A stretch of 64,000 nt of DNA from a virus. Below, piece by piece: positions 1,378 to 56,186 of this stretch. The notes beneath the pieces were generated by a model. The model was not told the DNA's origin, did not search any database, and saw only the letters and a list, made by a program, of their open reading frames with translations. The stretch is from IMG/VR virus record IMGVR_UViG_3300028676_000003, positions 304,550 through 368,549 of that record; one strand, written 5' to 3'. A program made the translations under genes and the position numbers. The first letter of the stretch is position 1. Every line of letters begins with the position of its first letter.

Positions 1378-1761
1378 ATGGTAGCAATATTAATAACATA
1401 CAATAAATGGCTTACAGAGTCTAAGTTATTTGTAGTAAAAGAAGTGAAGATGTTCGCAGGAATTGGACTTAAAGAGGCCAAGGATTTTGTGGACGAAATT
1501 GATAATAACATCCGTTTGGGTAAAACTATTTCTATTGGAAAAGGGAGTGAAACACACGAAATACTAAAATTCTTAAAAGAGAAAGACTTACTTTCATTTG
1601 TGGAAGCTCATAAGACTGGGCTAAAGAAAGAAAATCATCGTGTGGTTGCTAAGCGTAGCAAGGAATATGATATAGCTAGGTCTTGGTTCGATTCTTTGCA
1701 CCCAAAGAAACAAGCTATGATTCAAACGCTAATAAACGAAGAAAATGGCATTTCAGGATAA
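1378..1761 (+). CDS. L7/L12 C-terminal-domain-like protein, paralogue 3 of 3
   Basis: The clearest of the three copies. KLFVVKEVKMFAGIGLKEAK is nearly the textbook bL12 C-terminal signature (KVAVIKAVR..TGLGLKEAK), and a later stretch (EILKFLKEKDLLSFVEA) matches the position of the domain's last helix and strand. A family-specific tail (ARSWFDSLHPKKQAMIQTL) follows. Phage-encoded bL12 homologues have been reported in very large phages. Here only the factor-binding domain is kept, which suggests recruitment of or interference with GTPase translation factors. The stop overlaps the start of the RNA ligase. Confidence 0.6.
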   Translation: MVAILITYNKWLTESKLFVVKEVKMFAGIGLKEAKDFVDEIDNNIRLGKTISIGKGSETHEILKFLKEKDLLSFVEAHKTGLKKENHRVVAKRSKEYDIARSWFDSLHPKKQAMIQTLINEENGISG

Positions 1762-2443
1762 ATACGGAAGAACCCTACATTTTGATTTTAGTCCTGGAAC
1801 TACATCGGATGATAGAATAAATACAGAATGGAGAGAGCAGGTACAGAAGTTTCCTAAGCTGATTCATACTGAGAAACTAGACGGAGAAAACTCTTGTCTA
1901 TCTCAATATGGTGTCTTTGCTAGGTCACATGCGGCACCTACACTACATCCATGGGCTAACCACTTGAAAGAGAAGCAATCAGTAATTCAACATGACCTAA
2001 AAAGCATGGATTTTGAAATATTTGGTGAAAACCTATATGCTTTACACTCAATCATTTACCCTGAACTTACAGCACATTTCTATGTGTTTGGAATTAGGGT
2101 CCTTGATAAGTGGCTTTCATGGGAAGAAACCAAGCAATGGGCTGGATTCTTTGATTTTCAAGTGGTTCCCGAATTGGGAATTCAAGATACAACTGAACCT
2201 GAACTAATAAAATCAAGGGTACTAGAATTAGGTAGTCAGCCAAGCGTATTTGGTTCACAACAAAATAATACTGACCCGCTTATTGATTGTACACGTGAAG
2301 GTATTGTAAGTAGGAATATAGACGAATACACAGTTGAAGGTTTCAAAGAGAATATCTTCAAATATGTGAGAAAAGACCACGTTCAAACGGACGTTCATTG
2401 GAGTAAAACAATAACAAGAGCAAGACTAATACACGAATACTAA
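1745..2443 (+). CDS. RNA ligase (Rnl2-like nucleotidyltransferase family)
   Basis: Nucleotidyltransferase motif I is visible as HTEKLDGENS with the candidate adenylated lysine at residue 44. An acidic motif III-like stretch (DFEIFGENLYALHSI) and a motif IV/V region (REGIVSR ... FKYVRKDHVQ) follow. At 232 residues it is short, with no room for a large C-terminal domain. Family role: ATP-dependent sealing of 3'-OH/5'-phosphate RNA nicks through ligase-AMP and RNA-AMP. The HD-kinase fusion at 4430 and the 2H phosphoesterase at 6273 could supply the matching end-healing steps, so tRNA repair after anticodon-nuclease attack is a reasonable role. Confidence 0.82.
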   Translation: MAFQDKYGRTLHFDFSPGTTSDDRINTEWREQVQKFPKLIHTEKLDGENSCLSQYGVFARSHAAPTLHPWANHLKEKQSVIQHDLKSMDFEIFGENLYALHSIIYPELTAHFYVFGIRVLDKWLSWEETKQWAGFFDFQVVPELGIQDTTEPELIKSRVLELGSQPSVFGSQQNNTDPLIDCTREGIVSRNIDEYTVEGFKENIFKYVRKDHVQTDVHWSKTITRARLIHEY

Positions 2444-2628
2444 TGTTAGAAATATTTTTAACCATTTATATGGTATTGATTTGTGGAATACTTTTAAATA
2501 TCTTAGCTGGAACAGCATTTGATAGTTATTATGATAGAAGCAAAAAAGGTTTTTTATTAGGATGTTCATTGCTAATAATAAGTTGGTTTATACATGGATT
2601 ATTAATTCTATGGGGACATGGGAATTAG
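2443..2628 (+). CDS. Small membrane protein, 61 aa
   Basis: Two hydrophobic segments (about residues 2-24 and 38-57) separated by a short charged loop (YYDRSKK). The start shares one base with the upstream stop (TAATG). No family recognised; an inner-membrane location is inferred. Confidence 0.6.
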   Translation: MLEIFLTIYMVLICGILLNILAGTAFDSYYDRSKKGFLLGCSLLIISWFIHGLLILWGHGN

Positions 2629-2851
2629 AAATCTAATTGGAGCGATTGCCTCAGCCCATCAACGAAATAAGACCAAACCAAGAGGTAAAGAGGAAAAAGA
2701 GGTTTTAGAGCCTGACCATACTGGTTTTGTCCCTTATACAAAAGGATGGAAAGAGAAGCACTTAGAATGGGCCAATGCTGGCTTATGTGGTGAGTGTGGT
2801 GAACCATCGGGTGATGAATTAGGTATTTGTAATGAATGCCGTTGGAGTTAA
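2618..2851 (+). CDS. Zinc-ribbon protein, 77 aa
   Basis: The C-terminus carries a compact CGECGE ... CNEC pair, a typical four-cysteine zinc ribbon, after a basic Lys/Arg-rich N-terminal third. It overlaps the upstream gene by 11 bases and lies directly before an HNH gene. Nucleic-acid binding is plausible; the function is not known. Confidence 0.6.
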   Translation: MGIRNLIGAIASAHQRNKTKPRGKEEKEVLEPDHTGFVPYTKGWKEKHLEWANAGLCGECGEPSGDELGICNECRWS

Positions 2852-2854
2852 ATC

Positions 2855-3181
2855 ATGGGAAAGAAAGAAATTCGTAGAGACTTCAGAAATGACGTTTTTA
2901 CAAGAGATAAAAATACCTGTAAAGTATGTGGTGAAGTCCGAGAGTTAAGTCTTTTGGATGCTCACCACATTACTGATAGAGGGGAGATGCCTAATGGTGG
3001 TTACGTCAAAGAAAATGGTATTACCGTTTGTAAGGAAGACTGCCATTTGAAGGTTGAATGGTTCCATATCACTGAAGGTAAAGAATGGGAAGAAGGACTT
3101 CACCCTGACGACTTGTATAAGATGATTGGTTCATCTAAGGAGTTGGCTATTCAAAAAAGTGAGAGATTGCTTGCGAGATAA
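2855..3181 (+). CDS. HNH endonuclease domain protein
   Basis: 108 residues. CKVCGE at about 23-28, then the LDAHHIT motif, then ENGITVCKEDCHLKVEW make the His-Asn-His core with two CxxC-type zinc half-sites. Single-domain HNH proteins in phages act as nicking or homing endonucleases or in packaging. No terminase is in view, so a free-standing homing-type or accessory nuclease is more likely. Its 3' end holds the -33 element of the next promoter. Confidence 0.8.
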   Translation: MGKKEIRRDFRNDVFTRDKNTCKVCGEVRELSLLDAHHITDRGEMPNGGYVKENGITVCKEDCHLKVEWFHITEGKEWEEGLHPDDLYKMIGSSKELAIQKSERLLAR

Positions 3182-3201
3182 CTTAATAATTTGTACCTTT
3201 G
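3171..3201 (+). promoter_or_regulatory. Bacteroidota-type promoter, leaderless output
   Basis: TTG at 3171-3173, 20-base spacer, TACCTTTG at 3194-3201. The ATG of the next gene begins 5 bases after the final G, where transcription is expected to start, so the mRNA should be leaderless. Confidence 0.8.
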
Positions 3202-3205
3202 TAAT

Positions 3206-3922
3206 ATGGAATTTAAAAAGAAAGAAATAATCGGAATGATTCACTTGGCTGGCCCTGATGTGGTTGAAAAAGCTATGGAAGAAATCAAAATATATGAGGA
3301 AGAAGGTCTTTCAGGTATCATCATTGAAAATTATCACGGTAATACCAGTGAAGTTTTGAAGGTATTATCTCGATTAGAGCATCAACCAACTAGTCTTAGT
3401 GTAGGTATTAATATTCTACCTAATGAGTTCGAATTTGCTTTTAAGCTTTGTGATGATTATGAGTTTATTGATTTCATTCAATTAGACTATATCGCTGGTG
3501 CTTATGCTATTGGAGACAAGGTAATTAAGCTTGATGCAGATAAATTTATTGAGTTATCGATGAACCACAGCAAGGTTGAGGTTTACGGTGGCGTTTGGCC
3601 TAAATATTATAAACCATTGAAAGATAGTGTTCTTAGCGTTGATTTATTTGATGCTGTTTTCCTTGGAAGTGCCGTTGTTGTAACTGGTGAAGGTACTGGT
3701 TATGAAACACCTCTTGATAAGGTGAAAGAATTTGCTACCCTAATTGATGGTAAGGCTCCGCTAATTGTTGGAGCAGGACTTACAGCTGAAAATGTTAAAG
3801 AGCAACTTGAATTTGCTCAAGGTGGTATTGTTGGTAGTGCTTTTAAACCTAACGGTCGAACTCAGCAAATGGTTGATAGAGACTTGGTTAAAGCTTTTAT
3901 GGACGAAGTAAAAAAACTATGA
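3206..3922 (+). CDS. BtpA/SgcQ-family TIM-barrel protein
   Basis: 238 residues. Opens with IIGMIHLAGPD, then EGLSGIIIENY, a middle LGSAVVVTG-type strand, and ends with VGAGLTAENV and GGIVGSAFKPNG, the strand-end loops of a (beta/alpha)8 barrel as in the BtpA/SgcQ family. The exact reaction of this family is poorly defined, and a phosphate or phosphoribosyl ligand is suggested by the last two Gly-rich loops. ATG 3206 was chosen because the in-frame TTG at 3191 lies inside the promoter. Possibly linked to the nucleotide/NAD genes further along; that link is only inferred. Confidence 0.65.
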   Translation: MEFKKKEIIGMIHLAGPDVVEKAMEEIKIYEEEGLSGIIIENYHGNTSEVLKVLSRLEHQPTSLSVGINILPNEFEFAFKLCDDYEFIDFIQLDYIAGAYAIGDKVIKLDADKFIELSMNHSKVEVYGGVWPKYYKPLKDSVLSVDLFDAVFLGSAVVVTGEGTGYETPLDKVKEFATLIDGKAPLIVGAGLTAENVKEQLEFAQGGIVGSAFKPNGRTQQMVDRDLVKAFMDEVKKL

Positions 3923-3923
3923 T

Positions 3924-4424
3924 ATGGAATGTAAAACTATTAAGTTCGTTAAAAAAAATGGTGAAGCAGTAATAGTAAATAAAGTAAAATATCCTAATTT
4001 TTTTGAAGCTGAAGCTCAAGCAAATGGAATAAATACACAATCTAAGGTATTCACTAAAAGAATGGCTTATCATTGTAGTATTTGTGGTCATTATCACGTT
4101 GGAACTTCGATTGAAGCACTAAAGAAACCGAAACCCAAAGATAAAAAAATAAAGCTTATTGGTGGTATCAAGATGCCGAAGGTAGTTGGTAGTATTGATT
4201 TACGATTGTTTAATAATCCACAACCAAGAGTCAAAAAAGTGATGAATAGCGTTTATGTTAATCGAAAAATTTATCATTATATGATAAAGATTAAGATTGT
4301 TGAAGTAATCTGCCCTGATGGAAAGAAAAAAAGACCTAAAATTGATAAAATTCTTGGACAACAAAAAAAGCTTAACCAAAAAAAGATAATTGAATACATC
4401 TCTAAAGAGATAGCAAAAAAATAG
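3924..4424 (+). CDS. Basic protein with a CxxC-HxG half zinc site
   Basis: 166 residues, strongly basic in the second half. An N-terminal module of about 65 residues starting MECKT and ending YHCSICGHYHVG recurs in the gene at 5550 (MECTT ... YKCPVCFKFHVG), so the two are paralogues over this part and differ afterwards. The Lys-rich tail suggests nucleic-acid contact. No named family recognised. Confidence 0.6.
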   Translation: MECKTIKFVKKNGEAVIVNKVKYPNFFEAEAQANGINTQSKVFTKRMAYHCSICGHYHVGTSIEALKKPKPKDKKIKLIGGIKMPKVVGSIDLRLFNNPQPRVKKVMNSVYVNRKIYHYMIKIKIVEVICPDGKKKRPKIDKILGQQKKLNQKKIIEYISKEIAKK

Positions 4425-4429
4425 AAATC

Positions 4430-5542
4430 ATGTGGAAGTTTAAGTATTACGATATAGAGAAGGGTCCTGATTGGACAGCAATTGAAAGGAATTGCGAGTG
4501 GTTTCGTGATATGAAAGACGTTCCACAAGACAAGATATGGCATGCCGAAGGTGATGTTCAAATCCATACAAAAATGGTTTGTGAAGCACTTATCCAATTG
4601 TCTGAATTTCAAGAACTTAGTGAAGAAAAGAAACACATTATGTTTACAGGTGCGCTTATGCACGACATAGAGAAACGTTCTACAACTACAACTGAGTTCA
4701 AGAATGACAGAGAGTGTATTATTGCTCCTAAGCATGCTGAAAGAGGTGAGAAAACAGCAAGAGAAATTCTTTATATGGATTTTGATTGTCCTTATCATTC
4801 TAGAGAACAAATCTGTAAGATTGTTAAGTGGCACGGGAAGCCTCTACACGATGCATCTAATAAGACACTTGCTAGACTAGCAACACAAGTTCAATTACCA
4901 TTTCTAGCAATGATTGCAAAGGCCGATATTCTTGGCCGTATTTGTACTGATGCTGAAGAACACTTGGAAAGAATTGAATTTTTCCAAATGCAAGCAGAAG
5001 ACATTGGTTGTTGGGGTCGTACAATGTACTTTCAAAATCAATTGATTGAATATGAAGCTTTAAAAACGGGTAATTTATATTCACATCGTTTTGATGATAC
5101 GAAGTTTGAGGTAATGATGATGTCCGCAATCCCAGGTTCAGGCAAAGACCACTACGTTAAGAATAACCTTCAAGGGTGGCCTGTAATCAGTCTTGACGAT
5201 ATTAGAGCTGAGCTTAAGGTTAAGCCTTTAGATAAAAAGGGTAACGGACAAGTGATTCAACTAGCTAAAAAGAGAGCTAAGGAACTAATGGCTAAGCATA
5301 CAAATTTTGTATGGAATGCCACAAATATAACTCAACAAATGAGAGGTCAGTTGATTGAGTTATTTGAAGAATATGGTGGAAAGGTAACAATTGTTTATAT
5401 TGAGGTCCCTTATAAGACTCTTATCAAGCAAAATAACGATAGAGAAGCGATAGTTCCTCAAAGTGTTATTGAAAAGATGATTAGAAAATGGGAACCACCT
5501 ATTCGTGAAGAAGCATATAGAATATTAACTTTTACAAATTAA
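4430..5542 (+). CDS. HD-domain phosphohydrolase fused to polynucleotide-kinase-like P-loop
   Basis: 370 residues in two parts. The N-terminal HD domain shows His38, His46 and the His78-Asp79 pair (ALMHDIEKRS), the metal site of HD phosphohydrolases. From about residue 225 a P-loop kinase begins with SAIPGSGKDHY, then LDDIRAEL and an Arg/Lys-rich lid, as in Pnkp-type 5'-OH polynucleotide kinases. An Asp follows the P-loop lysine where Ser/Thr is usual. HD plus kinase would remove 2',3'-cyclic phosphate and phosphorylate 5'-OH ends, preparing broken RNA for the ligase at 1745. The end-healing role is inferred. Confidence 0.72.
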   Translation: MWKFKYYDIEKGPDWTAIERNCEWFRDMKDVPQDKIWHAEGDVQIHTKMVCEALIQLSEFQELSEEKKHIMFTGALMHDIEKRSTTTTEFKNDRECIIAPKHAERGEKTAREILYMDFDCPYHSREQICKIVKWHGKPLHDASNKTLARLATQVQLPFLAMIAKADILGRICTDAEEHLERIEFFQMQAEDIGCWGRTMYFQNQLIEYEALKTGNLYSHRFDDTKFEVMMMSAIPGSGKDHYVKNNLQGWPVISLDDIRAELKVKPLDKKGNGQVIQLAKKRAKELMAKHTNFVWNATNITQQMRGQLIELFEEYGGKVTIVYIEVPYKTLIKQNNDREAIVPQSVIEKMIRKWEPPIREEAYRILTFTN

Positions 5543-5549
5543 ATATGAT

Positions 5550-5825
5550 ATGGAATGCACAACCAAACACATCAACCCTGTTAGTGGGTTAGAAGAAGAT
5601 AAACCTAAGAAACCGTTCAACACAAATGAACAAGCAATTTCACATGCTAAGTATGTAAATGGACTACCTGACAGAACCTACAAGGTTGTTGCCTATAAGT
5701 GCCCTGTTTGCTTCAAGTTTCATGTTGGACGTAATGGTAAACCACTCACCAAGAAGTATGTGGATAAAATAACAAAACCAAAGACATTCCAAGGGTTTAA
5801 AATTATTGGAAAAATTGAATTATGA
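5550..5825 (+). CDS. Small CxxC-HxG protein, paralogue of the gene at 3924
   Basis: 91 residues. Starts MECTT and carries YKCPVCFKFHVG, matching the N-terminal module of the 166-residue protein upstream. Only one cysteine pair is present, so a metal site would need dimerisation or the nearby histidine. It lacks the long basic tail of its relative. Confidence 0.6.
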   Translation: MECTTKHINPVSGLEEDKPKKPFNTNEQAISHAKYVNGLPDRTYKVVAYKCPVCFKFHVGRNGKPLTKKYVDKITKPKTFQGFKIIGKIEL

Positions 5826-6247
5826 TTGAAAAATTTAGAATTATATTTGTAACAGTTCTGTTAGTAGGACTATTTGCATATTCTATAAATGCTATACATT
5901 TCTTTATAAAGAATGACACATTTATTCATTATCAAGATTGTGGTAAGGTAGTAGGAAGTTCAAGTGAAGACAGACCAGTAAAACATGGAAGTGAAACTGA
6001 GTTTTATTTATTGATGCAATACGAAAAACAAGGCTTCAAAACTCAAGATGTTGGCGTTACAACCTATTACCAATACAAGGATGCTATCGGTAAGAAGCTA
6101 TGTTTTGAACAATCAGAACCAAATCCAGCGATATCAACGATATCCGACCACATTAAACATTTCCTAGGAGTTTTCTTTATAGTTGTTTACGTTATAGTTT
6201 TTTTGGTTATATTTATAGGATGGTGCGCAGGCGACCTGAAAATATAA
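5822..6247 (+). CDS. Membrane protein with two TM segments
   Basis: 141 residues. A hydrophobic helix at about 5-27 and a second at about 113-135 flank a polar domain of roughly 80 residues with a Cys near each end (QDCGK, KLCFEQ), which could form a disulfide in the periplasm. ATGA overlap with the gene before. No family recognised. Confidence 0.6.
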   Translation: MIEKFRIIFVTVLLVGLFAYSINAIHFFIKNDTFIHYQDCGKVVGSSSEDRPVKHGSETEFYLLMQYEKQGFKTQDVGVTTYYQYKDAIGKKLCFEQSEPNPAISTISDHIKHFLGVFFIVVYVIVFLVIFIGWCAGDLKI

Positions 6248-6272
6248 TAACGAAAAGATTTATAACATATGA

Positions 6273-6845
6273 ATGAATATTAAACAAAGACTTAGAGAGG
6301 TTTTATTAGAAGCCGAAAAAAAGGACCACAAACGAGAGTATGGTTGCCTTATGGTTTTCTTAGATGTTGACAAGAAAGCTTGGAAAGAATTACAAGATAT
6401 GATTGACAAGGACGACTTGTATACAGAAAAAGACGATGATGGTTATGGTCTAGAAGATAAACCACACGTTACAGTACTTTACGGACTTCATGGAGAGATT
6501 GAAGATAAGGAATTAGAGGTTGAAATCAATAAGATTACAGAACCTAAGATTTCTTTTAAGAATATTTCAACATTTGAGGCCGATAAGTATGATGTATTGA
6601 AATTTGATGTATCGAGTAGCGACTTGGTTAAACTTAACAAGAAATTCAAGGAATTTCCACATACTAGTACGTTCCCTAATTATCATCCTCATTGTACAAT
6701 TGCTTATCTGAAAAAGGGTGTTGCTGAAAAGTACATCAAAAAGGCTAAGGATTTGGTTAAGATGGATATGGAACCTGAAAAGGTTGTTTATTCTAAGGTT
6801 GATGGAACTGAGAAGAATTATAAAATAAATAAAAAAGAGGCTTAA
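6273..6845 (+). CDS. 2H phosphoesterase (LigT/CPDase-like)
   Basis: 190 residues with two H-x-T motifs, HVTVLYG (His65) and HCTIAYL (His140), about 75 residues apart, the signature of 2H phosphoesterases. These enzymes open 2',3'-cyclic phosphates or act on 2'-5' linkages. The order RNA ligase, HD-kinase, 2H esterase within 5 kb suggests an RNA-repair function, namely resolving the cyclic phosphate left by anticodon nucleases. The stop codon sits inside the following terminator hairpin. Confidence 0.8.
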   Translation: MNIKQRLREVLLEAEKKDHKREYGCLMVFLDVDKKAWKELQDMIDKDDLYTEKDDDGYGLEDKPHVTVLYGLHGEIEDKELEVEINKITEPKISFKNISTFEADKYDVLKFDVSSSDLVKLNKKFKEFPHTSTFPNYHPHCTIAYLKKGVAEKYIKKAKDLVKMDMEPEKVVYSKVDGTEKNYKINKKEA

Positions 6846-10291: not shown

Positions 10292-10882
10292 ATGAGAATA
10301 AAATTAGACCATCAAAACATTTGGTTCGCTTCAGACTTTCACTTTTGTCACGCTAATGTGATTAAATACGATGGGAGACCTTTCGAGAATGTTGAAGAAA
10401 TGAACCAAACCTTGATTGACAATTGGAACTCTAAGGTTAAAGATAATGATATAGTCTTCTATTTGGGAGACTTATCATTTGACCGAGATGGAGTTCGCAC
10501 ACAAGAGATTATCAAACAATTAAAAGGTAAGATTCACTTTATACTTGGGAACCATGATGATGAAAGAGTTATCCGTAAGATGGGTAGATTCGAGTCAGTT
10601 AGTGACTACATCAACTTAAGTGTTAAAGACGATGAAAACCCTAGAAAAAGACAAGACATAATGATGATGCACTACGCAATCCTTTCTTGGGATAAAGCAC
10701 ATCACGGAGCATGGCACTTACACGGCCACTCACACCAAAGTCTTGTAAAACAAACGCCTGAATACTACAAACGTAAGGTTTTGGATATGGGTTGTAACGG
10801 ATGGGATTATTCACCAGTTAGTTACGCTGAAATCAAAAAAATAATGGCTACGAAAGAAATTGAAAGCGTAGACCATCACTAA
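10292..10882 (+). CDS. Calcineurin-like metallophosphoesterase
   Basis: 196 residues with the full five-motif set in order: SDFHFCH, YLGDLSF, LGNHDDERV, MMHY, and HGHSHQS. These give the bimetal site of the phosphoesterase fold. It resembles single-domain phage and bacterial phosphoesterases of unknown substrate (cyclic nucleotides, nucleic-acid ends or phosphoproteins). One of four such genes in the window (also 29762, 48833, 50604). Confidence 0.85.
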   Translation: MRIKLDHQNIWFASDFHFCHANVIKYDGRPFENVEEMNQTLIDNWNSKVKDNDIVFYLGDLSFDRDGVRTQEIIKQLKGKIHFILGNHDDERVIRKMGRFESVSDYINLSVKDDENPRKRQDIMMMHYAILSWDKAHHGAWHLHGHSHQSLVKQTPEYYKRKVLDMGCNGWDYSPVSYAEIKKIMATKEIESVDHH

Positions 10883-10902
10883 AAAACACAATAATTAAAT
10901 AT

Positions 10903-12318
10903 ATGAGTAAAGGCGAAAAAAAGAGTATTTCTATTGGAACGGAAACTGAAGGAGAAAAACTTAGACGATTACTAGGAATTACAGCTCCTAGCGAAAAGGT
11001 ATCAGCAACAAAAGGTATGAAAAATAAAATTCTACAAGAATTAATTCATGTTGATAAATTTTCAGTTGATGGTTTACCTGCACATATCCAATTGGATATT
11101 GATGAGGCGATAGTTTATGATGCAGAAGATGATGAAGAACCATATTTGGTTAACTCTTATTCAGAAGAAATCAGTTTTATCGAGTTTGCAATCATCAACG
11201 GATTCTTCCACGATGCTTACAAAAGAAAAACAAAAGAAATCAGAGTAACTGGTTACGGAACTACTGATAACATTGGTAGAATCGATTTCGGTGGTGGGTT
11301 TGATGTAACAAATTCATATTGGTTTAATGCGGTAATCGAAGGAGACGATAATGAATACTTCTTTCAAACAAAGATGTATATCGACGGCCGTGGAGACTTA
11401 AATAACCAATTCCACATCACTGCGAAAAAAGGTGTAAATCATCCTGATATGGTTGATTTGATGAAAAAAATGAAGATTGTTGCATTCAACAATTCTGAGT
11501 ACAAAGGACAATGTATCAAAGTTAAATTGAGAGAGGGTCGTTTTAAAGCAATCGAAATCATTGATATCGGAGAAGCTGGAAATGAGTTAATCTTGAATGC
11601 TACTCAAAGAAAATACGTTGATAGTTTTATCAATCGTGTTGGTAGAGGTAACTCAGCGAGATACTTGTTTAATGGTGAGCCTGGGACGGGGAAGACAGAA
11701 AGCATCCGTGAGATTGCAAGAAGTCTTATTCCTAATGTAACATTCATTATTCCTGACTTTGCTACATCACAAGACTTAACAAGCATCATGGAAGCTTGCG
11801 AAATTTTCGAAAATTCTGTAATCATCATGGATGATATTGACTTGTACTTAGGTTCAAGAGATAACGGAAGCTACACACGCTTACTTGGTGAGTTCTTATC
11901 ATTCTTCGATGGTGTTAAGAAACGTAAAATCAGCCTTTTAGCATCTACAAATGATAAAGGACTTGTTGATAAAGCGGCCGAGAGACCAGGACGTTTCAAC
12001 TTCACCCTTGATTTCACATTCCTTGATGAAGCGCAAATCGAGAAGGTTTGTAACATTCACTTGGATGAAAAATGGAGAGTTCAAGAAGTATACGATGCCC
12101 TTAGCGGAACCATCAACGGTAAAAAAGCTAAGATTACTGGTGCATTCATTGCTAACCTTGCTGATAACATCCGTGAAATGTCAGAAGATGATGAGAATTG
12201 GGATATCGAAGATACTGTGTCATTGATTACAGAATCTTATAAAGGTTTCTATTCAAGTCAGCTTGAAAAAGAGAAGAGTAACTTAGGGTTTTCACCCCAA
12301 AACTCAGGCTTAAGATAA
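10903..12318 (+). CDS. AAA+ ATPase
   Basis: 471 residues. A partner-specific N-terminal half of about 240 residues precedes the ATPase core: Walker A GEPGTGKT, Walker B VIIMDDID, sensor-1 LLASTND, and arginine-finger region ERPGRF. This is the BCS1/proteasome-ATPase style of AAA+. A smaller ATPase at 37825 has the same tail motif (QRPGRV). The substrate is unknown; remodelling of a protein complex is the usual role. It ends shortly before a strong terminator. Confidence 0.85.
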   Translation: MSKGEKKSISIGTETEGEKLRRLLGITAPSEKVSATKGMKNKILQELIHVDKFSVDGLPAHIQLDIDEAIVYDAEDDEEPYLVNSYSEEISFIEFAIINGFFHDAYKRKTKEIRVTGYGTTDNIGRIDFGGGFDVTNSYWFNAVIEGDDNEYFFQTKMYIDGRGDLNNQFHITAKKGVNHPDMVDLMKKMKIVAFNNSEYKGQCIKVKLREGRFKAIEIIDIGEAGNELILNATQRKYVDSFINRVGRGNSARYLFNGEPGTGKTESIREIARSLIPNVTFIIPDFATSQDLTSIMEACEIFENSVIIMDDIDLYLGSRDNGSYTRLLGEFLSFFDGVKKRKISLLASTNDKGLVDKAAERPGRFNFTLDFTFLDEAQIEKVCNIHLDEKWRVQEVYDALSGTINGKKAKITGAFIANLADNIREMSEDDENWDIEDTVSLITESYKGFYSSQLEKEKSNLGFSPQNSGLR

Positions 12319-12366: not shown

Positions 12367-12375
12367 ATACCTTTG
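12345..12375 (+). promoter_or_regulatory. Bacteroidota-type promoter inside terminator
   Basis: TTG at 12345-12347 in the terminator loop, 20-base spacer, TACCTTTG at 12368-12375. Drives the NadM-Nudix gene. Confidence 0.82.
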
Positions 12376-12405
12376 CTCTATAATATTAACAAAACATATA
12401 AAAAA

Positions 12406-13422
12406 ATGGAAATTAAAACAGAACATAATCCTAAAGATTTTCAAGTTGGAGCGTTGGTTGGACGCTTTCACGTAGATGAATTACACATTGGTCACAGAGA
12501 ACTTATTGACCATGTTATCCAAAACCATAAAAAAGTAATTCTATTCTTAGGAGTTGCTAAAACAGTAGGTAGAAAAAATCCATTGGATTATGCCACTCGT
12601 AAAGCTATGATTCAGTTGGAATATCCTGATATCGTTATTCTTCCACTTGAAGATAAACGTTACAATACTGCTTGGGCCAGCAACTTAGACCATGCATTAA
12701 GCATTCCTTTCGGTGAGAAAAAAGCTCTTATTTATGGTAGCCGTGACTCATTCATTCCATCTTACAAAGAAGGAAAAGGTAGAAATAAAACCGTTGAATT
12801 AGAGCCAAGTGTTGACTATTCAGGAACTGCTGTAAGAGAAAAAATTGCTAGTGAAATAATTAATCATCCATTTTTTAGAGCTGGAATTATTTATTCAGTT
12901 TATGGTGAAAGAGCCAAAACGTTTCCAACAGTAGATATTTGTGCTTACAATGAGCAAGGACAAATCCTTTTGGCTAAGAAGCCTGATGAGAAGCTTTGGA
13001 GATTTGTTGGTGGATTCGTTGATAGAAATGATGGTTCTTATGAAATTGCCGCTAAACGTGAATTCTACGAGGAAACTGGTGGTGATGCCCGTTTAGGGGA
13101 AAAATTAAAATATATTTGCAGTCAAAGCGTTGATGATTGGAGATACCGTGATACAGAAAATGGAATCATGACAACTCTTTTCTTAGGTAGATATGCATTT
13201 GGACAAGCAGTTGCTTCAGATGATTTAGCAAATGGTGGTGACCTTCAATGGGTTGATATCAAAGATTTTAGTAATTTCGATGGAATTAGAACTAAAGTGA
13301 TGCCTGAACACAGAGACCTTATGACCAAATTGATTGATGCTGTTTACGAAGAAGGACTTATTCCAAACATTGGAACTAGACTTCCTGAAAGAGAAGGAAA
13401 TATCACGTATACTCAAGAGTAA
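12406..13422 (+). CDS. Bifunctional NMN adenylyltransferase / Nudix hydrolase (NadM-Nudix)
   Basis: 338 residues. Residues 1-170 carry the nucleotidyltransferase signature GRFHVDELHIGHREL (GxFxxxHxGH) and YSGTAVREKI (SGTxxR), as in NadM-type NMN adenylyltransferases. Residues about 190-300 hold a Nudix box starting at GGFVDRNDG and ending REFYEETGG, as in ADP-ribose pyrophosphatase domains. The first half makes NAD+ from NMN and ATP; the second would split ADP-ribose to AMP and ribose-5-phosphate. With the Nampt gene 1.3 kb on, it forms a two-step salvage from nicotinamide. ATG 12406 is used since the in-frame TTG lies in the promoter. Confidence 0.9.
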   Translation: MEIKTEHNPKDFQVGALVGRFHVDELHIGHRELIDHVIQNHKKVILFLGVAKTVGRKNPLDYATRKAMIQLEYPDIVILPLEDKRYNTAWASNLDHALSIPFGEKKALIYGSRDSFIPSYKEGKGRNKTVELEPSVDYSGTAVREKIASEIINHPFFRAGIIYSVYGERAKTFPTVDICAYNEQGQILLAKKPDEKLWRFVGGFVDRNDGSYEIAAKREFYEETGGDARLGEKLKYICSQSVDDWRYRDTENGIMTTLFLGRYAFGQAVASDDLANGGDLQWVDIKDFSNFDGIRTKVMPEHRDLMTKLIDAVYEEGLIPNIGTRLPEREGNITYTQE

Positions 13423-13446
13423 ATATAAACCAACTAAAAGAATCAT

Positions 13447-14064
13447 ATGAAAGTATTAGAATTACTTGGGATTAACCCAACAAAAGGAGAATTGGTTACA
13501 CTTACTGGTAAAACAGGACATGGAAGAACAAGTATGTTAGTTAAGATTGCTTGCGACTTGGCTAACGAAGGTAAGAGTGTATTGTTTATCAGCGATGAAT
13601 TAGCAATTCATCAAATAGCTGAAAAATGTACTCCATTATTAAAAATCGAGAACCCTAGATTTAAAGCTGTTAGAAGTGATTATCCAGTTGAAATTATTAC
13701 TGATTACTTCGCAGAAGAACAAGACATTGATGTTGTAGTTCTTGATGGTTACTTCGGTAACAAGACCAATTTCAGAGTTCTAGCGCAAAAACACGATACA
13801 TTAATCATAAATACAATTCAAATGAATAAAAGCGGATTTGTTACTGGAGATACAAGACCAATGATGACTTCTGATTGTGTAATTTCGGTTACAAGAATCA
13901 ATGGTAGCTTGACTTTATTGGATAAATTGAAAAATTTCTTCTTGTTTTGGAAACCTAAAAAAGTGGCTCCAAATACACAGTTGGCTTTGATTAAAAACCG
14001 TCATGGTAAACAAACGAAAACCGATATCAACTTCGATTTTCAAAGTTTACAAATAAAAAAGTAA
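13447..14064 (+). CDS. RecA/DnaB-like P-loop ATPase, Walker A variant
   Basis: 205 residues. TLTGKTGHGRTSML is a Walker A in which the usual GKT is GRT, after a lead of only about 18 residues, followed by VLFISDE and a Walker-B-like VVVLDGY. It resembles the ATPase core of RadA/DnaB/KaiC-type proteins, trimmed to one domain. Replacing the P-loop lysine by arginine normally cripples hydrolysis, so it may be a nucleotide sensor or regulator. It lies between the two NAD salvage genes along with another ATPase. Confidence 0.6.
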   Translation: MKVLELLGINPTKGELVTLTGKTGHGRTSMLVKIACDLANEGKSVLFISDELAIHQIAEKCTPLLKIENPRFKAVRSDYPVEIITDYFAEEQDIDVVVLDGYFGNKTNFRVLAQKHDTLIINTIQMNKSGFVTGDTRPMMTSDCVISVTRINGSLTLLDKLKNFFLFWKPKKVAPNTQLALIKNRHGKQTKTDINFDFQSLQIKK

Positions 14065-14071
14065 AAAAAGC

Positions 14072-14102
14072 TTGTACGGTAAGATATTTTGTTGTACCTT
14101 TG
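14072..14102 (+). promoter_or_regulatory. Bacteroidota-type promoter
   Basis: TTG at 14072-14074, 20-base spacer, TACCTTTG at 14095-14102, 18 bases before ATG 14121. Drives the ABC-type ATPase and Nampt. Confidence 0.82.
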
Positions 14103-14120
14103 TCATCTAAATAAAAAGAA

Positions 14121-14753
14121 ATGGACGAACATATTACTAGATTAGTTGACGTGATGGACACCATCAAACATGATGAAGTCACAATCCTAACTGGCCGAAA
14201 TGCTGGTGGGAAATCACTTATCAGAAAACAACTTGTTTTCCGTATTGCCAAAGCCCTAGATAAAGAACCTAAAAATGTCTTTATCCCAAGTGCTTCACAA
14301 GAGCTAAGAACCAAGTCACAGCCAAGTATGGGAGCATTGTCTTCTATTGGTCATGACTTAGAGTGGTTAGCTACTTCTGATAGTACTGTTCACAGCTTGG
14401 AGCAAGTATTCAAGTACCATACTGAAAAGGCAGACTATGTTATCATAGATGAACCTGAAATTGGTATTGGTGAAGAATTGCAATTAGGTATTGCTGATTA
14501 CCTTAATGAGGAAATCGCTAAGTTAAAAGCAATGGGTAAGGGTTGTTTGATTATCTGCCATAGCAGACTTATTGCTAAGAATGTAGTCCATGATACTTTC
14601 ATTAACTTGGAAGGTATGACTGAAGAGGAATGGTTAAATCGTGTTCCTCAAAAGATTTCAGTTGAAGATTTTAAAGCGTTTGCTACGGGATTATTCTCAG
14701 CAATCGGAGACAGAGAAAGAGAAAATAAAGAAAAACAAAAAGAACAAAACTAA
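14121..14753 (+). CDS. ABC/SMC-type ATPase domain protein
   Basis: 210 residues. Walker A GRNAGGKS at about 28-35, Walker B YVIIDEPEIG, and a switch histidine in LIICHSR are ABC-type features. A classical signature motif is not obvious. There are no membrane segments, so it is not a transporter by itself. It sits 1 base before the Nampt gene under the same promoter, so the two are almost certainly co-expressed. Its role with Nampt is unknown. Confidence 0.7.
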   Translation: MDEHITRLVDVMDTIKHDEVTILTGRNAGGKSLIRKQLVFRIAKALDKEPKNVFIPSASQELRTKSQPSMGALSSIGHDLEWLATSDSTVHSLEQVFKYHTEKADYVIIDEPEIGIGEELQLGIADYLNEEIAKLKAMGKGCLIICHSRLIAKNVVHDTFINLEGMTEEEWLNRVPQKISVEDFKAFATGLFSAIGDRERENKEKQKEQN

Positions 14754-14754
14754 T

Positions 14755-16338
14755 ATGAGCGGACAAAGAAACCTTGCTAGAAGATTAGAAAGAGCTATCA
14801 ACACTGGGAATATGGATGCTATTAAAGCAATGCAAACTCACTTGTTGAAGGTCCTTGTAAAACCACAAAACCTTATCCTAGCCTCAGATGGTTATAAATA
14901 CTCACACCACAGATTCTATGGTGCTGAAATGACCAAAATGATTTCGTATTGCGAATCAAGAGGTGGGAAATTCTCAGAGACCGTATTCTACGGCCTACAA
15001 ATATTCCTTAAACAATACTTAGAAGGAATCGCTATCACAACAGAAGAAATTGACCAAGCACAAGAAATCCTTGGTAGTCAATTAGGTATCTTCGGCCGTG
15101 ATGATGTATTCGACAGAAGCAAATTTGACTATATCGTTGAAAAACACGGTGGTAAGCTTCCAATCGCTATAAAAGCTGTTCCTGAAGGAACGGTTGTAAA
15201 TACCAAAAATGTATTATTCGTTATTGAGAGTCTTGACGATAATTGTGCATGGTTAACCAATTTCTTAGAAAGCCTTTTGCTTCAAGTTTGGTACCCAATT
15301 ACGGTTGCTACACTTTCAAGAGAAGTGAAAAAAATCGTATTGAAAGCGTTCAATAAATGCACATCTTATGATGAAGCAACTATTGATTTCCTTGTTCAAT
15401 TCGTATTAAACGACTTCGGATTCCGTGGAACGTCAAGCGTTCAGTCTGCCAGTGTTGGTGGTTCTGCTCACTTGGTTAACTTTAGAGGTTCTGATACCGT
15501 TGTTGCTAGTGACTTGATTAGAGAAATGTACAATACCAATACCGTTTACGGCTTAAGTATTCCTGCTACAGAACACTCTATTATGACACTTAAAGGTGAA
15601 GAAGGAGAGCTTGATATGATGAGAAGAGTACTTACAACATTCCCTACAGGACTTGTTGCTTGCGTATCTGATTCATACAATATCTTTAGAGCATGTTCTC
15701 AGTATTGGGGTCAAGACTTGATTGATTTAATCTTGAGCAGACCTGCGACACCTGGAAACCAACTAGTTATCCGTCCTGATTCAGGTCACGTAATCAGAAC
15801 ACTTAAGGAAATCTTTAGTATCTTGTTTGACAAGTTCGGTTATACAGTAAATGAAAAAGGTTACAAGGTATTGCCACCACAAGTACGTGTAATTCAAGGT
15901 GATGGTGTTAACTTAAACTCAATCATTGAAATTTACCAAATGCTTGAAGACGAAAAGATTTCTCCTGAGAACTTAGCGTTAGGTATGGGTGGTAAATTGC
16001 TTCAAGCTGATATCGATAGAGATACACAAAACTTTGCTACAAAGGCTTGTTCTGCTATCGTTGACGGTAAAAAGGTTGATATTATCAAGTCACCAACAGA
16101 AATGGATGCTGATGGTAACATCAGTCAATCATTCAAAAAATCTAAAAAAGGTGAACTTAAATTGGTCTTAAATGACGATGGAAGAACATACAGAACAGTA
16201 ACGTCATTAGACGCTGAGTATGACCACGTTAAAGATGAATTGGTTCCAGTTTTCAGAATGGGTGAAATCCTTGTTGACTATGGATTTGAAGAAATCCGTG
16301 AGAGAGCAAGGGTAAAAGACTACGAATTGGTAGCATAA
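14755..16338 (+). CDS. nadV: Nicotinamide phosphoribosyltransferase (Nampt/NadV family)
   Basis: 527 residues. Landmarks follow human NAMPT in order: NLILASDGYKYSHH, LNDFGFRGTSSVQSASVGG, SAHLVNFRGSDTV, the IPATEHSIM loop (position of the catalytic histidine), VSDSYNIFRA, VIRPDSGH, VIQGDGVNLNSI and LGMGGKLLQ. It joins nicotinamide and PRPP to make NMN. PRPP could come from the synthetase-like gene at 26104 and NMN would be used by the enzyme at 12406. An extra N-terminal 40 residues are helical and basic. ATG 14755 sits 1 base after the upstream stop. Phage Nampt-type enzymes are known to restore NAD+ against NAD-depleting defence; the closely related variant using ADP-ribose pyrophosphate is an alternative. 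Confidence 0.92.
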   Translation: MSGQRNLARRLERAINTGNMDAIKAMQTHLLKVLVKPQNLILASDGYKYSHHRFYGAEMTKMISYCESRGGKFSETVFYGLQIFLKQYLEGIAITTEEIDQAQEILGSQLGIFGRDDVFDRSKFDYIVEKHGGKLPIAIKAVPEGTVVNTKNVLFVIESLDDNCAWLTNFLESLLLQVWYPITVATLSREVKKIVLKAFNKCTSYDEATIDFLVQFVLNDFGFRGTSSVQSASVGGSAHLVNFRGSDTVVASDLIREMYNTNTVYGLSIPATEHSIMTLKGEEGELDMMRRVLTTFPTGLVACVSDSYNIFRACSQYWGQDLIDLILSRPATPGNQLVIRPDSGHVIRTLKEIFSILFDKFGYTVNEKGYKVLPPQVRVIQGDGVNLNSIIEIYQMLEDEKISPENLALGMGGKLLQADIDRDTQNFATKACSAIVDGKKVDIIKSPTEMDADGNISQSFKKSKKGELKLVLNDDGRTYRTVTSLDAEYDHVKDELVPVFRMGEILVDYGFEEIRERARVKDYELVA

Positions 16339-26103: not shown

Positions 26104-27078
26104 ATGTCACAATCAGTATTAGTATCACTTGACGGCCGTACAGAATTGGCCTTAAATATTATCAAAAGCGTTGCAAAACACTTTGGAGACCCAAACAATT
26201 ATGTCTTTTTAGACTTCGTTAATTCACAAAAATTCTCTGATGGAGAACTATGTGTGGATTATAAAAATTCTATTCGTGGAAAGCGAGTTTATATCCTTAC
26301 AAGTCCGAATACTTCAGACGAGATTATGAAAATGACTCTAGCGATAGATGCCGCTAAGAGAGCGGCCGCAAAGGAAATCATCGTAATTCTACCTTATTTC
26401 CCATATGCCCGTCAAGATAAAAAAGACCAAGCTCGTGGACCAATTGGAGCAACAATTATTTCAAAAATGATTCAAGTTCTTGGTGCTACAGGTATCATTA
26501 CATATGACTTACATGCTGACCAAATTCAAGGTTACTTTGATATTCCAGTAACTCACTTAGAAGGAAAGAATGTCTTTGATTCTTACATTGCTAAGATTGC
26601 TGATGAAGATACTGTTCTTTGTGGACCTGATGCAGGTTCTGCCAAGAGAGTTAAGAGAATGAAAGACCAATTACAAACATATCATAATACTTCACTTAAC
26701 ATTGTCATGTTAGACAAGAGCCGTAAAGAGGCAAATGTTATTGACGAAATGATTATCATTGGTGATGTAACTGGTAAGAACGTTATTATTGTTGATGATA
26801 TGGTTGATACCGCAGGGACACTATGTAAGGCGGCTGAGGTCCTAATGAATGCAGGTGCTAAGAGTGTAAGAGCCGTGATTAGTCATGGTGTTTTATCAGG
26901 TCCAGCTTATGATAGAATCGAAGCTAGTGTTTTAACTGAATTGGTTGTTAGTGATTCATTAGATGTTAAACCAAGTCCTAAGATTAAGGTAATTAGCGTT
27001 GAACAACAAATAGCATTTGCTATCTGTGCAATCAATAGTGATTCAAGTTATGAAGGACTAAGAAAAGAAAGATTCTAA
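26104..27078 (+). CDS. prs: Ribose-phosphate pyrophosphokinase-like enzyme (PRPP synthetase family)
   Basis: 324 residues, standard length. SQKFSDGELCV, LPYFPYARQDKKDQARGPIG (ATP and ribose-phosphate loops), TYDLHADQIQGYF, and the PRPP loop IIVDDMVDTAGTL are all present. Canonical role: ribose-5-phosphate plus ATP gives PRPP, the co-substrate of Nampt. In a recently described phage NAD+ rebuilding pathway, a PRPP-synthetase homologue instead makes ADP-ribose pyrophosphate. Sequence reading alone cannot distinguish the two. Phosphate product of the Nudix half at 12406 could feed it. Confidence 0.9.
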   Translation: MSQSVLVSLDGRTELALNIIKSVAKHFGDPNNYVFLDFVNSQKFSDGELCVDYKNSIRGKRVYILTSPNTSDEIMKMTLAIDAAKRAAAKEIIVILPYFPYARQDKKDQARGPIGATIISKMIQVLGATGIITYDLHADQIQGYFDIPVTHLEGKNVFDSYIAKIADEDTVLCGPDAGSAKRVKRMKDQLQTYHNTSLNIVMLDKSRKEANVIDEMIIIGDVTGKNVIIVDDMVDTAGTLCKAAEVLMNAGAKSVRAVISHGVLSGPAYDRIEASVLTELVVSDSLDVKPSPKIKVISVEQQIAFAICAINSDSSYEGLRKERF

Positions 27079-39157: not shown

Positions 39158-39634
39158 ATGAATAAAGCAATAGAAATACAAGCTCCAAATCAAGTTCCAT
39201 TGACACATGGCCTATATGTGTTCTTAGGTGGTTCTATTGAAATGGGTAAAGCTATAGAATGGCAAAAAGAGGTTATTGAAACTCTTAAGGATGAAAACAT
39301 TGTGTTTTTAAATCCTCGTAGAGATGATTGGAACTCTGAATGGACCCAAACCATAACTGACCCTAACTTTAATGAACAAGTTACTTGGGAATTAAAAAGA
39401 TTAGAAGAATCTGACTTTATTGTTATGGTTATTGACCCAAACACTATCTCACCAATTACTCTTTTAGAGATTGGACTTCACGCTAGAAGCGGAAAGATGA
39501 TTGTTTGTTGTCCTGATGGGTTTTTTAGAAAAGGAAATGTTGATGTTACTGGACATTTTTATGGATATCCAGTTGTTGAAACACTAGAAGAAGTAATAGA
39601 AGCAATTCGTGAAAAATTAAATGGCAAAAAGTAA
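39158..39634 (+). CDS. Nucleoside 2-deoxyribosyltransferase-like protein
   Basis: 158 residues. YVFLGGSIEMGKAIEWQ, FLNPRRDDWNSEW, FNEQVTWELKRLEESDFIV and ITLLEIGLHARSG give the full domain, including the Asp and Glu expected in the active site. Same family as the gene at 19428. Likely acts on phage or host deoxynucleosides. Confidence 0.87.
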   Translation: MNKAIEIQAPNQVPLTHGLYVFLGGSIEMGKAIEWQKEVIETLKDENIVFLNPRRDDWNSEWTQTITDPNFNEQVTWELKRLEESDFIVMVIDPNTISPITLLEIGLHARSGKMIVCCPDGFFRKGNVDVTGHFYGYPVVETLEEVIEAIREKLNGKK

Positions 39635-40115
39635 AAGACAACACAAATTAAACACTGAGATTACAGCTAAAGAAGTTCGTGTAACTGACTTGGGTGTAGT
39701 AGCACTGGCAGTAGCTTTAAAAGAAGCTTCATCAAAGGAAATGGACCTTGTTCTTATCAATGAGAACGCAGTTCCACCAGTTTGTAAGATTATGAACTAT
39801 GAGAAGTTCATCTATGAGCAAAGCAAGAAACCTAAGAATAAGGGTCTTGATGTGAAAGAAATCAAATTGGGTCCTAATACGTCTGAAAATGACTTGGAGT
39901 ACCGTATCAAACACATGATTGATTTCTTGAAAAAGGGTCATAAGGTAAAGATAAGTCTTCAATTCAGAGGTCGTCAAATGCAACACATCAACATAGGACA
40001 AGAACAAATCCTAAAGCTAATGGTTGCAGTTGAAGAATTTGGAACAGCCGAGGCAATGCCTAAGTTAGAAGGAAAGAAAATGTTTGCTATGATTAAGCCA
40101 AAACCTAGCAAATAA
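39621..40115 (+). CDS. infC: Translation initiation factor IF-3
   Basis: 164 residues, nearly the full bacterial length of 170-180. N-domain: LNTEITAKEVRVTD, LGVVALAVALKEA and the hallmark NAVPPVCKIMNYEKF with YEQSKK. C-domain: VKEIKLGPNTSENDLEYRI, FLKKGHKVKISLQFRGRQM, and KLEGKKMFAMIKPKP. Both domains and the lysine-rich linker are intact, so it should bind the 30S platform, block early 50S joining and monitor the start codon. A phage copy could bias initiation towards phage mRNAs, including the leaderless ones predicted here. Confidence 0.94.
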   Translation: MAKSKRQHKLNTEITAKEVRVTDLGVVALAVALKEASSKEMDLVLINENAVPPVCKIMNYEKFIYEQSKKPKNKGLDVKEIKLGPNTSENDLEYRIKHMIDFLKKGHKVKISLQFRGRQMQHINIGQEQILKLMVAVEEFGTAEAMPKLEGKKMFAMIKPKPSK

Positions 40116-55211: not shown

Positions 55212-56186
55212 ATGGCAAAGATACTTACTGGTATTCAAAGTACTGGAACACCACACTTAGGCAATCTATTAGGTGCTATTATTCCCGCTATTGAACTATC
55301 GAATAACCCTGATAATGAATCTTATTTATTCATTGCTGATTTACACTCAGTTACACAAATTAAAGATGGTGAAACCCTTAGAGAAAATACCTTTAGTACT
55401 GCCTGTGCTTGGTTAGCTTGTGGTTTGGACCCAAATAATGTTACCTTTTACAGACAATCAGATGTTCCTCAAACTACTGAACTAAATTGGTATTTGAATT
55501 GTTTCTTTCCATATCAACGATTAAGACTAGCTCATTCATTTAAAGACAAATCTGATAGGCTTGAAGATGTTAACGCTGGATTATTCACATATCCAATGCT
55601 TATGTCAGCTGATATCCTTTTATATGATGCTGAGATTGTTCCTGTTGGTAAGGACCAATTACAACATTTAGAGTTTACACGTGATGTAGCTACCAAGTTT
55701 AACCATCAAATGGGTGAAACTTTTGTTATACCTAGACCTAATGTTCAAGGAGAGACACAGACAATCATAGGTATAAATGGTTCTAAAATGAGTAAATCAG
55801 CCAACAATACTATCAACATATTCGCCAGTGATAAGGATTTATATAAACAAATCATGAGTATTGAAACTGATAGTACACCACTTGAAGAACCTAAGAACCC
55901 TGATACTTGTAATGTATTTAAATTATGCTCATACCTTGCAAGTGAGGAAGAACTTGAATCGCTTAGATTCAAATATTTAGCAGGTGATTATGGTTATGGG
56001 CATGCAAAAAAATATTTATACATTCTTATACTTATGAAATTTGAATCAGAAAGAGAAAAGTATAATTATTATATCAATAATCCTGATGTTGTTAATAATT
56101 TGTTATTAGAAGGAGCTGAAAAAGCTAAGCTAGTTGCCAATACTACACTAGGAAGAGTTAGAGAAAAATTAGGTTTTAACAAATAA
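55212..56186 (+). CDS. trpS: Tryptophanyl-tRNA synthetase
   Basis: 324 residues, full bacterial length. The HIGH equivalent is GTPHLGN at about 12-18, then FIADLHSVTQ, TYPMLMSADILLYDA, VPVGKDQLQHLEFTRD, and the KMSKS loop GSKMSKSANNTI at about 190. The C-terminal helices that bind the anticodon end are present. It charges tRNA-Trp. Full-length synthetases are rare in phages. It may secure Trp-tRNA supply or resist host synthetase inactivation. Own promoter; probably leads a short operon. Confidence 0.96.
   Translation: MAKILTGIQSTGTPHLGNLLGAIIPAIELSNNPDNESYLFIADLHSVTQIKDGETLRENTFSTACAWLACGLDPNNVTFYRQSDVPQTTELNWYLNCFFPYQRLRLAHSFKDKSDRLEDVNAGLFTYPMLMSADILLYDAEIVPVGKDQLQHLEFTRDVATKFNHQMGETFVIPRPNVQGETQTIIGINGSKMSKSANNTINIFASDKDLYKQIMSIETDSTPLEEPKNPDTCNVFKLCSYLASEEELESLRFKYLAGDYGYGHAKKYLYILILMKFESEREKYNYYINNPDVVNNLLLEGAEKAKLVANTTLGRVREKLGFNK

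Follow-up and report, generated by a model that had tools for sequence, protein, structure and literature searches.

A ligase/HD-Pnk repair pair homologous to a bacterial operon, and a separate 2H phosphoesterase with a predicted capsid-targeting leader, in a jumbo phage

Do an RNA ligase, an HD-kinase fusion (HD-Pnk) and a 2H phosphoesterase, encoded within 5 kb of a jumbo-phage genome, work as one RNA repair pathway? The stretch of DNA that we analysed, called the window here, is the final 64 kb (positions 304,550 to 368,549) of the 368,549-bp virus record IMGVR_UViG_3300028676_000003. The original prediction held that these three genes, at window positions 1745-6845, provide cyclic-phosphate removal, 5' phosphorylation and ligation, the steps for mending tRNAs cut by anticodon nucleases such as PrrC. 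We found all three open reading frames (ORFs) there, and domain matches confirmed their families; like all genes discussed below, they lie on the + strand.

1745..2443, + strand: ATP-dependent RNA/polynucleotide ligase of 232 amino acids, nucleotidyltransferase domain only (PF09414, E=1e-25)
4430..5542, + strand: HD-Pnk, with HD domain PF01966 at residues 45-168 and AAA_33 kinase PF13671 at residues 230-357
6273..6845, + strand: 2H phosphoesterase (PF13563, E=2.5e-10; Acb1 PF23474, E=7e-7; both above the cut-off; phrog_755)

Our analysis indicates that the ligase and HD-Pnk are one unit, homologous to a widespread bacterial operon, and that the 2H gene is separate from this pair and appears to encode a counter-defence enzyme of the Acb1/phrog_755 group. 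We observed the gene families, catalytic residues, gene order, leader conservation and protease presence; from these we infer activities, substrates, packaging and injection, and we lean towards a joint reading in which a repair pair stands beside a separate, packaged counter-defence 2H enzyme.

The window HD-Pnk has the domain order of its family, an N-terminal HD phosphohydrolase followed by a C-terminal P-loop polynucleotide 5'-kinase. In 33 HD-Pnk sequences, the HD metal-site residues H46, H78, D79, H102 and D166 were invariant and H135 nearly so. The kinase residues G238-K239 (GSGK239), D256, R259 and R338 were conserved as well, with K239, D256, R259 and R338 invariant in the 33 homologues. 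The P-loop reads GSGKD in place of GSGK[ST], which could mark a dead kinase; we rejected this reading, since the bacterial family itself has GSGKDT as its consensus. The predicted structure had a predicted local distance difference test (pLDDT) score of 94.8, and its kinase domain resembles the polynucleotide kinases of Clostridium thermocellum and T4. The best PHROG was 6931, and in a tree the protein clustered with those of the viral contigs L010 and L004 (support 100), beside Bacteroidota sequences. The 2',3'-phosphatase activity is expected to reside in the HD domain, as in the Runella and Deinococcus HD-Pnk enzymes of the Shuman papers. The Runella slithyformis protein, with an HD 2',3'-phosphatase and a kinase, reportedly has homologues across many phyla and is often encoded with an ATP-dependent ligase.

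The ligase carries motifs I (K44), III (E95), IV (E185) and V (K206), and K44-x-D46-G47, E95, E185-G186 and K206 were kept in 97-100% of 79 homologues, as expected of a PF09414 enzyme. It is essentially an adenylation domain: the PF09414 match stops at residue 208 of 232, with no OB domain and no extra C-terminal domain of the T4 Rnl2 type. Its PHROG matches were phrog_34045, phrog_24030 and phrog_548; no Rnl1 type was identified among the Pfam and PHROG matches, and a sequence search of the PDB gave no match. Two genes in the same stretch had been overlooked in the original prediction.

2855..3181, + strand: stand-alone HNH domain gene (CxxC...DAHH...N...CH; matches many HNH PHROGs)
3206..3922, + strand: BtpA/SgcQ-family TIM-barrel protein (PF03437, 1.6e-28)

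The HNH gene belongs with the ligase, because it matches residues 5-68 of phrog_24030, a family of HNH-RNA ligase fusions that has its HNH part at this N-terminal position. The 462-kb phage LR756500 has such a fusion, a single ORF of 364 amino acids (L009:7856-8950) with HNH at the ligase N-terminus, which both the HNH and the ligase queries matched.

To place the pair among bacteria, we scanned bacterial genomes with an HD-Pnk alignment and compared the stretches around HD-Pnk at 80 loci. A ligase of the same family lay within ~6 kb of HD-Pnk in 75 of them, and directly upstream, often overlapping, in 71. The five loci without a ligase include one at a contig end (L065) and one on a Gracilibacteria contig (L076), where genetic-code table 11 probably fails. 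No 2H, HNH or BtpA gene was detected in the stretches around any of the 80 loci. In viral contigs, the order ligase-HNH-HDPnk recurred in L004/L012 (72% and 61% identical proteins) and in L010 (HD-Pnk 63% identical), and in LR756500 just two bases separate the HNH-ligase ORF from HD-Pnk downstream of it; ligase homologues adjoining HD-Pnk were 72% identical to the window ligase in L004 and 44% in LR756500. HD-Pnk is associated with a ligase in the window, L004, L010, LR756500 and L015. A point that weighs against a single unit is the 2 kb between the two window genes, which overlap in many bacteria. The recurrence of order and synteny in phages and in 75 of 80 bacterial loci argues that the neighbourhood is not chance. 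Homology, the conservation of catalytic residues and that of the operon give good support to the prediction of end healing and sealing by HD-Pnk plus ligase; the 2H gene falls outside the conserved unit.

We picture the ligase and HD-Pnk, probably together with the HNH gene, as the phage version of the break-repair operon that encodes ligase and HD-Pnk in bacteria. Within HD-Pnk, the HD domain would strip a 2',3'-cyclic or 3'-phosphate, the kinase domain would add a phosphate to the 5'-OH, and the ligase would seal the healed ends. The likeliest substrate in this phage would be RNA, and in the first place tRNA that defence nucleases of the host have cleaved.

The choice of RNA needs weighing against DNA, since the module might instead act on phage DNA ends, at oxidative or HNH-made nicks. 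HD-Pnk is said to be active on DNA as well as RNA, and the HNH gene beside or fused to the ligase could act on DNA. The closest bacterial precedent has also been studied in DNA repair: in Deinococcus radiodurans, DRB0098 (HD plus kinase) and the adenylation-domain-only ligase DRB0100 form an operon, the DRB0098 kinase is active and phosphorylates a DNA oligonucleotide, and DRB0100 adenylates itself yet sealed neither DNA nor RNA in vitro (PMC1997131). The title of a 2018 paper ties Deinococcus HD-Pnk to ionizing radiation and mitomycin C resistance. DNA is a real alternative substrate because of this failure to seal either nucleic acid and the link to radiation and mitomycin resistance. On the other side, the window ligase belongs to the PF09414 RNA_ligase family and has no OB domain, and the phage is rich in tRNA genes and carries a second, tRNA-ligase-like set. 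The record gave 63 tRNA matches above the cut-off, and at least 3.8 kb lie between the end of the last group and the ligase downstream. Outside the window, at ~239.8-240.7 kb (239817-240743; L161:1429-2355), a PF13671 kinase is fused to a tRNA-ligase-type phosphodiesterase (PF08302) with HxT-like motifs; by its domains it is a Trl1-like (yeast-tRNA-ligase-like) KIN-CPD module. We had considered this kinase as a T4-type Pnkp and rejected that, as the phosphodiesterase domain of fungal tRNA ligase is what its C-terminal half matches. A ligase of 348 amino acids at ~253.8-254.9 kb (phrog_548) is Rnl2-like in length. The second repair set and the 63 tRNA genes make tRNA upkeep plausible, and they support only indirectly the putative roles of tRNA as the substrate and of anticodon nucleases as the adversary, which the original prediction proposed. 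We consider a DNA-end role unlikely, though it deserves attention. With a break-repair operon of bacterial kind beside a kinase/CPD protein, an Rnl2-like ligase and 63 tRNAs in one giant phage, how the labour is divided becomes a testable question.

What is new about the repair pair is its host; the kind was already known from the Deinococcus operon, phage RM378, Campylobacter phages and the survey of Iyer et al. 2021. DRB0098 has an N-terminal HD and a C-terminal kinase, as does the window HD-Pnk, whereas the third gene of that bacterial operon is the macro-like DRB0099 instead of HNH and BtpA genes. Runella slithyformis-type HD-Pnk shares with the window pair the HD and kinase domains and the association with a ligase; the window pair differs in being phage-borne, with a split HNH gene, and in several phages other genes lie between ligase and HD-Pnk. 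Among phages, we identified p110 of Rhodothermus phage RM378 (Rm378p110) as an HD-then-kinase protein of PHROG 6931, like the window protein, to which it is ~24% identical over the part aligned by BLAST. Its 3'-phosphatase activity was demonstrated by Blondal 2005, as cited in PMC1997131. RM378 also encodes an RNA ligase, but one annotated as the Rnl1/tail-fibre-attachment type and ~6.5 kb from the HD-PNK, unlike the window ligase. Campylobacter phages gave a distant full-length HD-Pnk match, which in CP81 lies near an Rnl1-type ligase. In Iyer et al. 2021, the RNA-repair parts described for jumbo phages include ATP-grasp ligases, HNH fusions, kinases, 2H enzymes and HD-like phosphatases (PMC7824862). 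T4 Pnkp and Rnl1 follow the same logic of healing and then sealing, but T4 Pnkp has a HAD-type phosphatase and the reversed domain order, and the ligase family also differs; the window pair is not a T4 Pnkp-Rnl1 set. The earlier statement that the phage uses parts different from those of T4 holds in that HD replaces HAD and no Rnl1 was identified, but RM378, the Campylobacter phages and the bacterial operon show that the alternative is not novel.

Does the 2H enzyme belong to this pathway as a third step? Its HxT tetrad (H65xT67, H140xT142) was invariant in 25 homologues, and its model shows the 2H fold; the tetrad is of the Acb1 type. Its best PHROG, phrog_755, is also that of T4 57B/Acb1 (5e-68 for 57B), an anti-CBASS (cyclic-oligonucleotide-based antiphage signalling system) nuclease (PMC9117128). 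T4 Acb1 shares the 2H fold, the HxT/HxT tetrad and phrog_755 with the window 2H protein, but it has 152 amino acids and no leader, whereas the window protein has 190 with a leader. For the place of the window protein among 2H families, phrog_755 and PF23474 point to Acb1, but PF13563 scores higher, and fold comparison does not separate Acb1 (Z 11.2) from Usb1 (13.8), plant cyclic phosphodiesterase (12.7) or LigT (11.9), the Z scores leaning slightly to Usb1 and cyclic phosphodiesterase. A sequence search of the PDB found a weak Acb1 match only (E=0.2).

That the three enzymes form one tRNA repair pathway against anticodon nucleases, in which 2H would open the cyclic phosphate for HD-Pnk to take off the phosphate that is left, would fit their packing within 5 kb, the matches of the 2H fold to cyclic phosphodiesterases and Usb1, and the proposal of Iyer 2021 (PMC7824862) that 2H enzymes of jumbo phages serve ATP-grasp ligases by opening cyclic ends. 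The distribution of the genes argues otherwise. No linked 2H gene was detected in the stretches compared at the 80 bacterial ligase/HD-Pnk loci. When we checked co-occurrence in 23 viral records, which are incomplete, just two had 2H, HD-Pnk and ligase all present: the copy of this phage (G001) and the record of L012. A full HD-Pnk match was present in only three of 18 viral records with 2H (G001, G003 and G023), and in G023, which contains L050, HD-Pnk and ligase are present with 2H far away, inside a 2693-amino-acid protein. Because viral records are incomplete, the absence of HD-Pnk beside 2H is weak evidence. Even in L004, 5.5 kb separate 2H from HD-Pnk. The predicted capsid leader described below is on 2H alone. 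Furthermore, 2H is not needed for removal of 2',3'-cyclic phosphate, because the HD domain of HD-Pnk is expected to do this. A three-enzyme pathway is, in our estimate, improbable. In close relatives the usual neighbours of 2H are two other genes, which in the window occupy positions 10292-12318.

10292..10882, + strand: metallophosphoesterase (phrog_547); with the AAA gene, accompanies 2H in relatives without HD-Pnk
10903..12318, + strand: AAA+ ATPase; most close relatives have it near 2H, and in LR756500 it immediately precedes HNH-ligase/HD-Pnk

The 2693-amino-acid L050 protein (L050:8264-16345) has its 2H domain at residues 595-680 and also a low-molecular-weight phosphatase domain, and is possibly a polyvalent injected protein.

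The feature that sets the window 2H enzyme apart is its N-terminus.

6273..6311, + strand: 2H N-terminal leader MNIKQRLREVLLE, a predicted capsid-targeting sequence with a predicted prohead-protease site after E13

The motif of this leader, [FYL]xx[hydrophobic][IL]xE, has the same spacing as T4 IPIII (MKTYQEFIAE, followed by A), in which residues 4 and 7 matter for targeting and residues 8 and 10 for processing (PMC9026906). In an alignment of 25 family members, every row had I, L or V at position 11 and E at position 13, whereas variation was seen in most of the leader and in the linker behind it. Among 2H N-termini whose start was usable, 27 distinct ones in all, each had [LIMVF]xE ahead of the fold, as against 38% of 724 other ORFs (residues 5-24). 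We put weight on the stricter results because the loose motif is so common. The full leader motif was found in 19 of the 25 family members, in 21 of 389 forward ORFs of the same genome (the window 2H among the 21), and in no member of four control families. In the structural model, residues 3-14 form a predicted helix, pLDDT falls below 50 at residues 11-18 and the folded domain starts at ~20, which would place this short leader outside the fold. Leaders were also present in 635- and 642-kb phages (MKLKKYKQFIKES and MIKKYLEFMKES).

T4 has the gp21 prohead protease, and its IPI-III proteins have N-terminal leaders of 10-19 residues ending in [IL]xE (PMC9026906). The window phage likewise encodes a gp21-type S77 protease (1.6e-25), and its gene order from portal to major capsid protein resembles that of T4. 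Matching sites are present: the major capsid protein has LTE60 followed by S, and two proteins at core positions have 2-3 [IL]xE[AGSTN] sites per 100 residues, whereas the portal has 0.3. The head cluster of L042 includes the 2H gene, at a distance of 0.7 kb from the S77 gene. The difference from T4 is in the cargo, IP proteins there and, as predicted, a 2H enzyme here. Elsewhere in the genome, two N-termini resemble the leader, MQNFGKIKNTFNGILSE followed by A at 86521 (the gp67/68 position) and MTKRMMDVMRGGYKGLLSE followed by A at 207248, and mark candidate head-internal proteins.

The leader could instead be an N-terminal helix that arose by chance or serves the structure, without any part in targeting, on a protein made only after infection like T4 Acb1. 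Three observations count against packaging in this way. The loose motif occurs by chance in 38% of random N-termini; the 27 of 27 are not 27 independent events, because homologues share ancestry; and leaderless relatives exist, for LR756508, Molly and T4 Acb1 have no leader although LR756508, Molly and T4 have a gp21-type protease. These absences suggest that the leader is modular and that the protease alone does not predict it. Molly was rejected as a protease-free negative control once an S77 match was found; it shows just that the leader can be absent. A chance helix is harder to reconcile with the fixation of I/L/V11 and E13 in 25 diverse proteins whose leaders otherwise vary, the T4 IPIII spacing in many family leaders, the position outside the fold, and the protease and other cleavage sites in the phage. 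In addition, two small phages without a detectable S77 protease were also without a leader. We give the chance explanation a substantial but less than even share of belief. In our reading, the 2H enzyme is probably a capsid-delivered counter-defence protein and not a third repair step. The leader would direct it into the prohead, the gp21-like protease would cut it after LLE13, and the clipped enzyme would enter the cell together with the DNA, where it would hydrolyse a cyclic (oligo)nucleotide or 2',3'-cyclic phosphate.

It is possible, with the balance close to even but tilted against it, that this extends to a phage 2H/Acb1-like family with a T4-type capsid-targeting sequence, by which jumbo and other T4-like phages pre-load and inject a signal-destroying (or RNA-end-opening) enzyme. 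If so, the enzyme would blunt damage signals or cyclic-nucleotide immunity ahead of all phage gene expression, and a pre-packaged 2H nuclease would face nucleotide-signalling defence. A limited literature check turned up no earlier description of a 2H enzyme that is packaged.

When phages were searched at near-identity, nothing related to the region came up, and PADLOC made no defence-system call for the window genes examined. The BtpA/SgcQ gene lies between HNH and HD-Pnk in two phages, the window phage and L010; in the latter it is directly upstream of HD-Pnk (L010:9270-9989) in the order ligase-HNH-BtpA-HDPnk. We know of no role for this family in nucleic-acid repair. Two related small proteins (3924-4424 and 5550-5825) with the motif CxxC...HxxxG flank HD-Pnk, and their relatives lie near 2H or ligase in other phages. 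By eye, the flanks of the LR756500 locus (L009:102-419, 3689-4963 and 14852-15631) encode receiver-like, WGR/PARP-like and macro-domain-like proteins, an NAD/ADP-ribose theme. At window positions 12373-16338, a NUDIX protein of 349 amino acids is encoded close to nicotinamide phosphoribosyltransferase, and a phosphoribosyl pyrophosphate (PRPP) synthetase is at 26104-27078; beside the repair genes, these three are possibly an NAD+ restoration pathway. The window also encodes translation initiation factor IF3 (39621-40115), an RNase R-like exonuclease (43524-45515) and a class I (Trp/Tyr-type) aminoacyl-tRNA synthetase (55212-56186).

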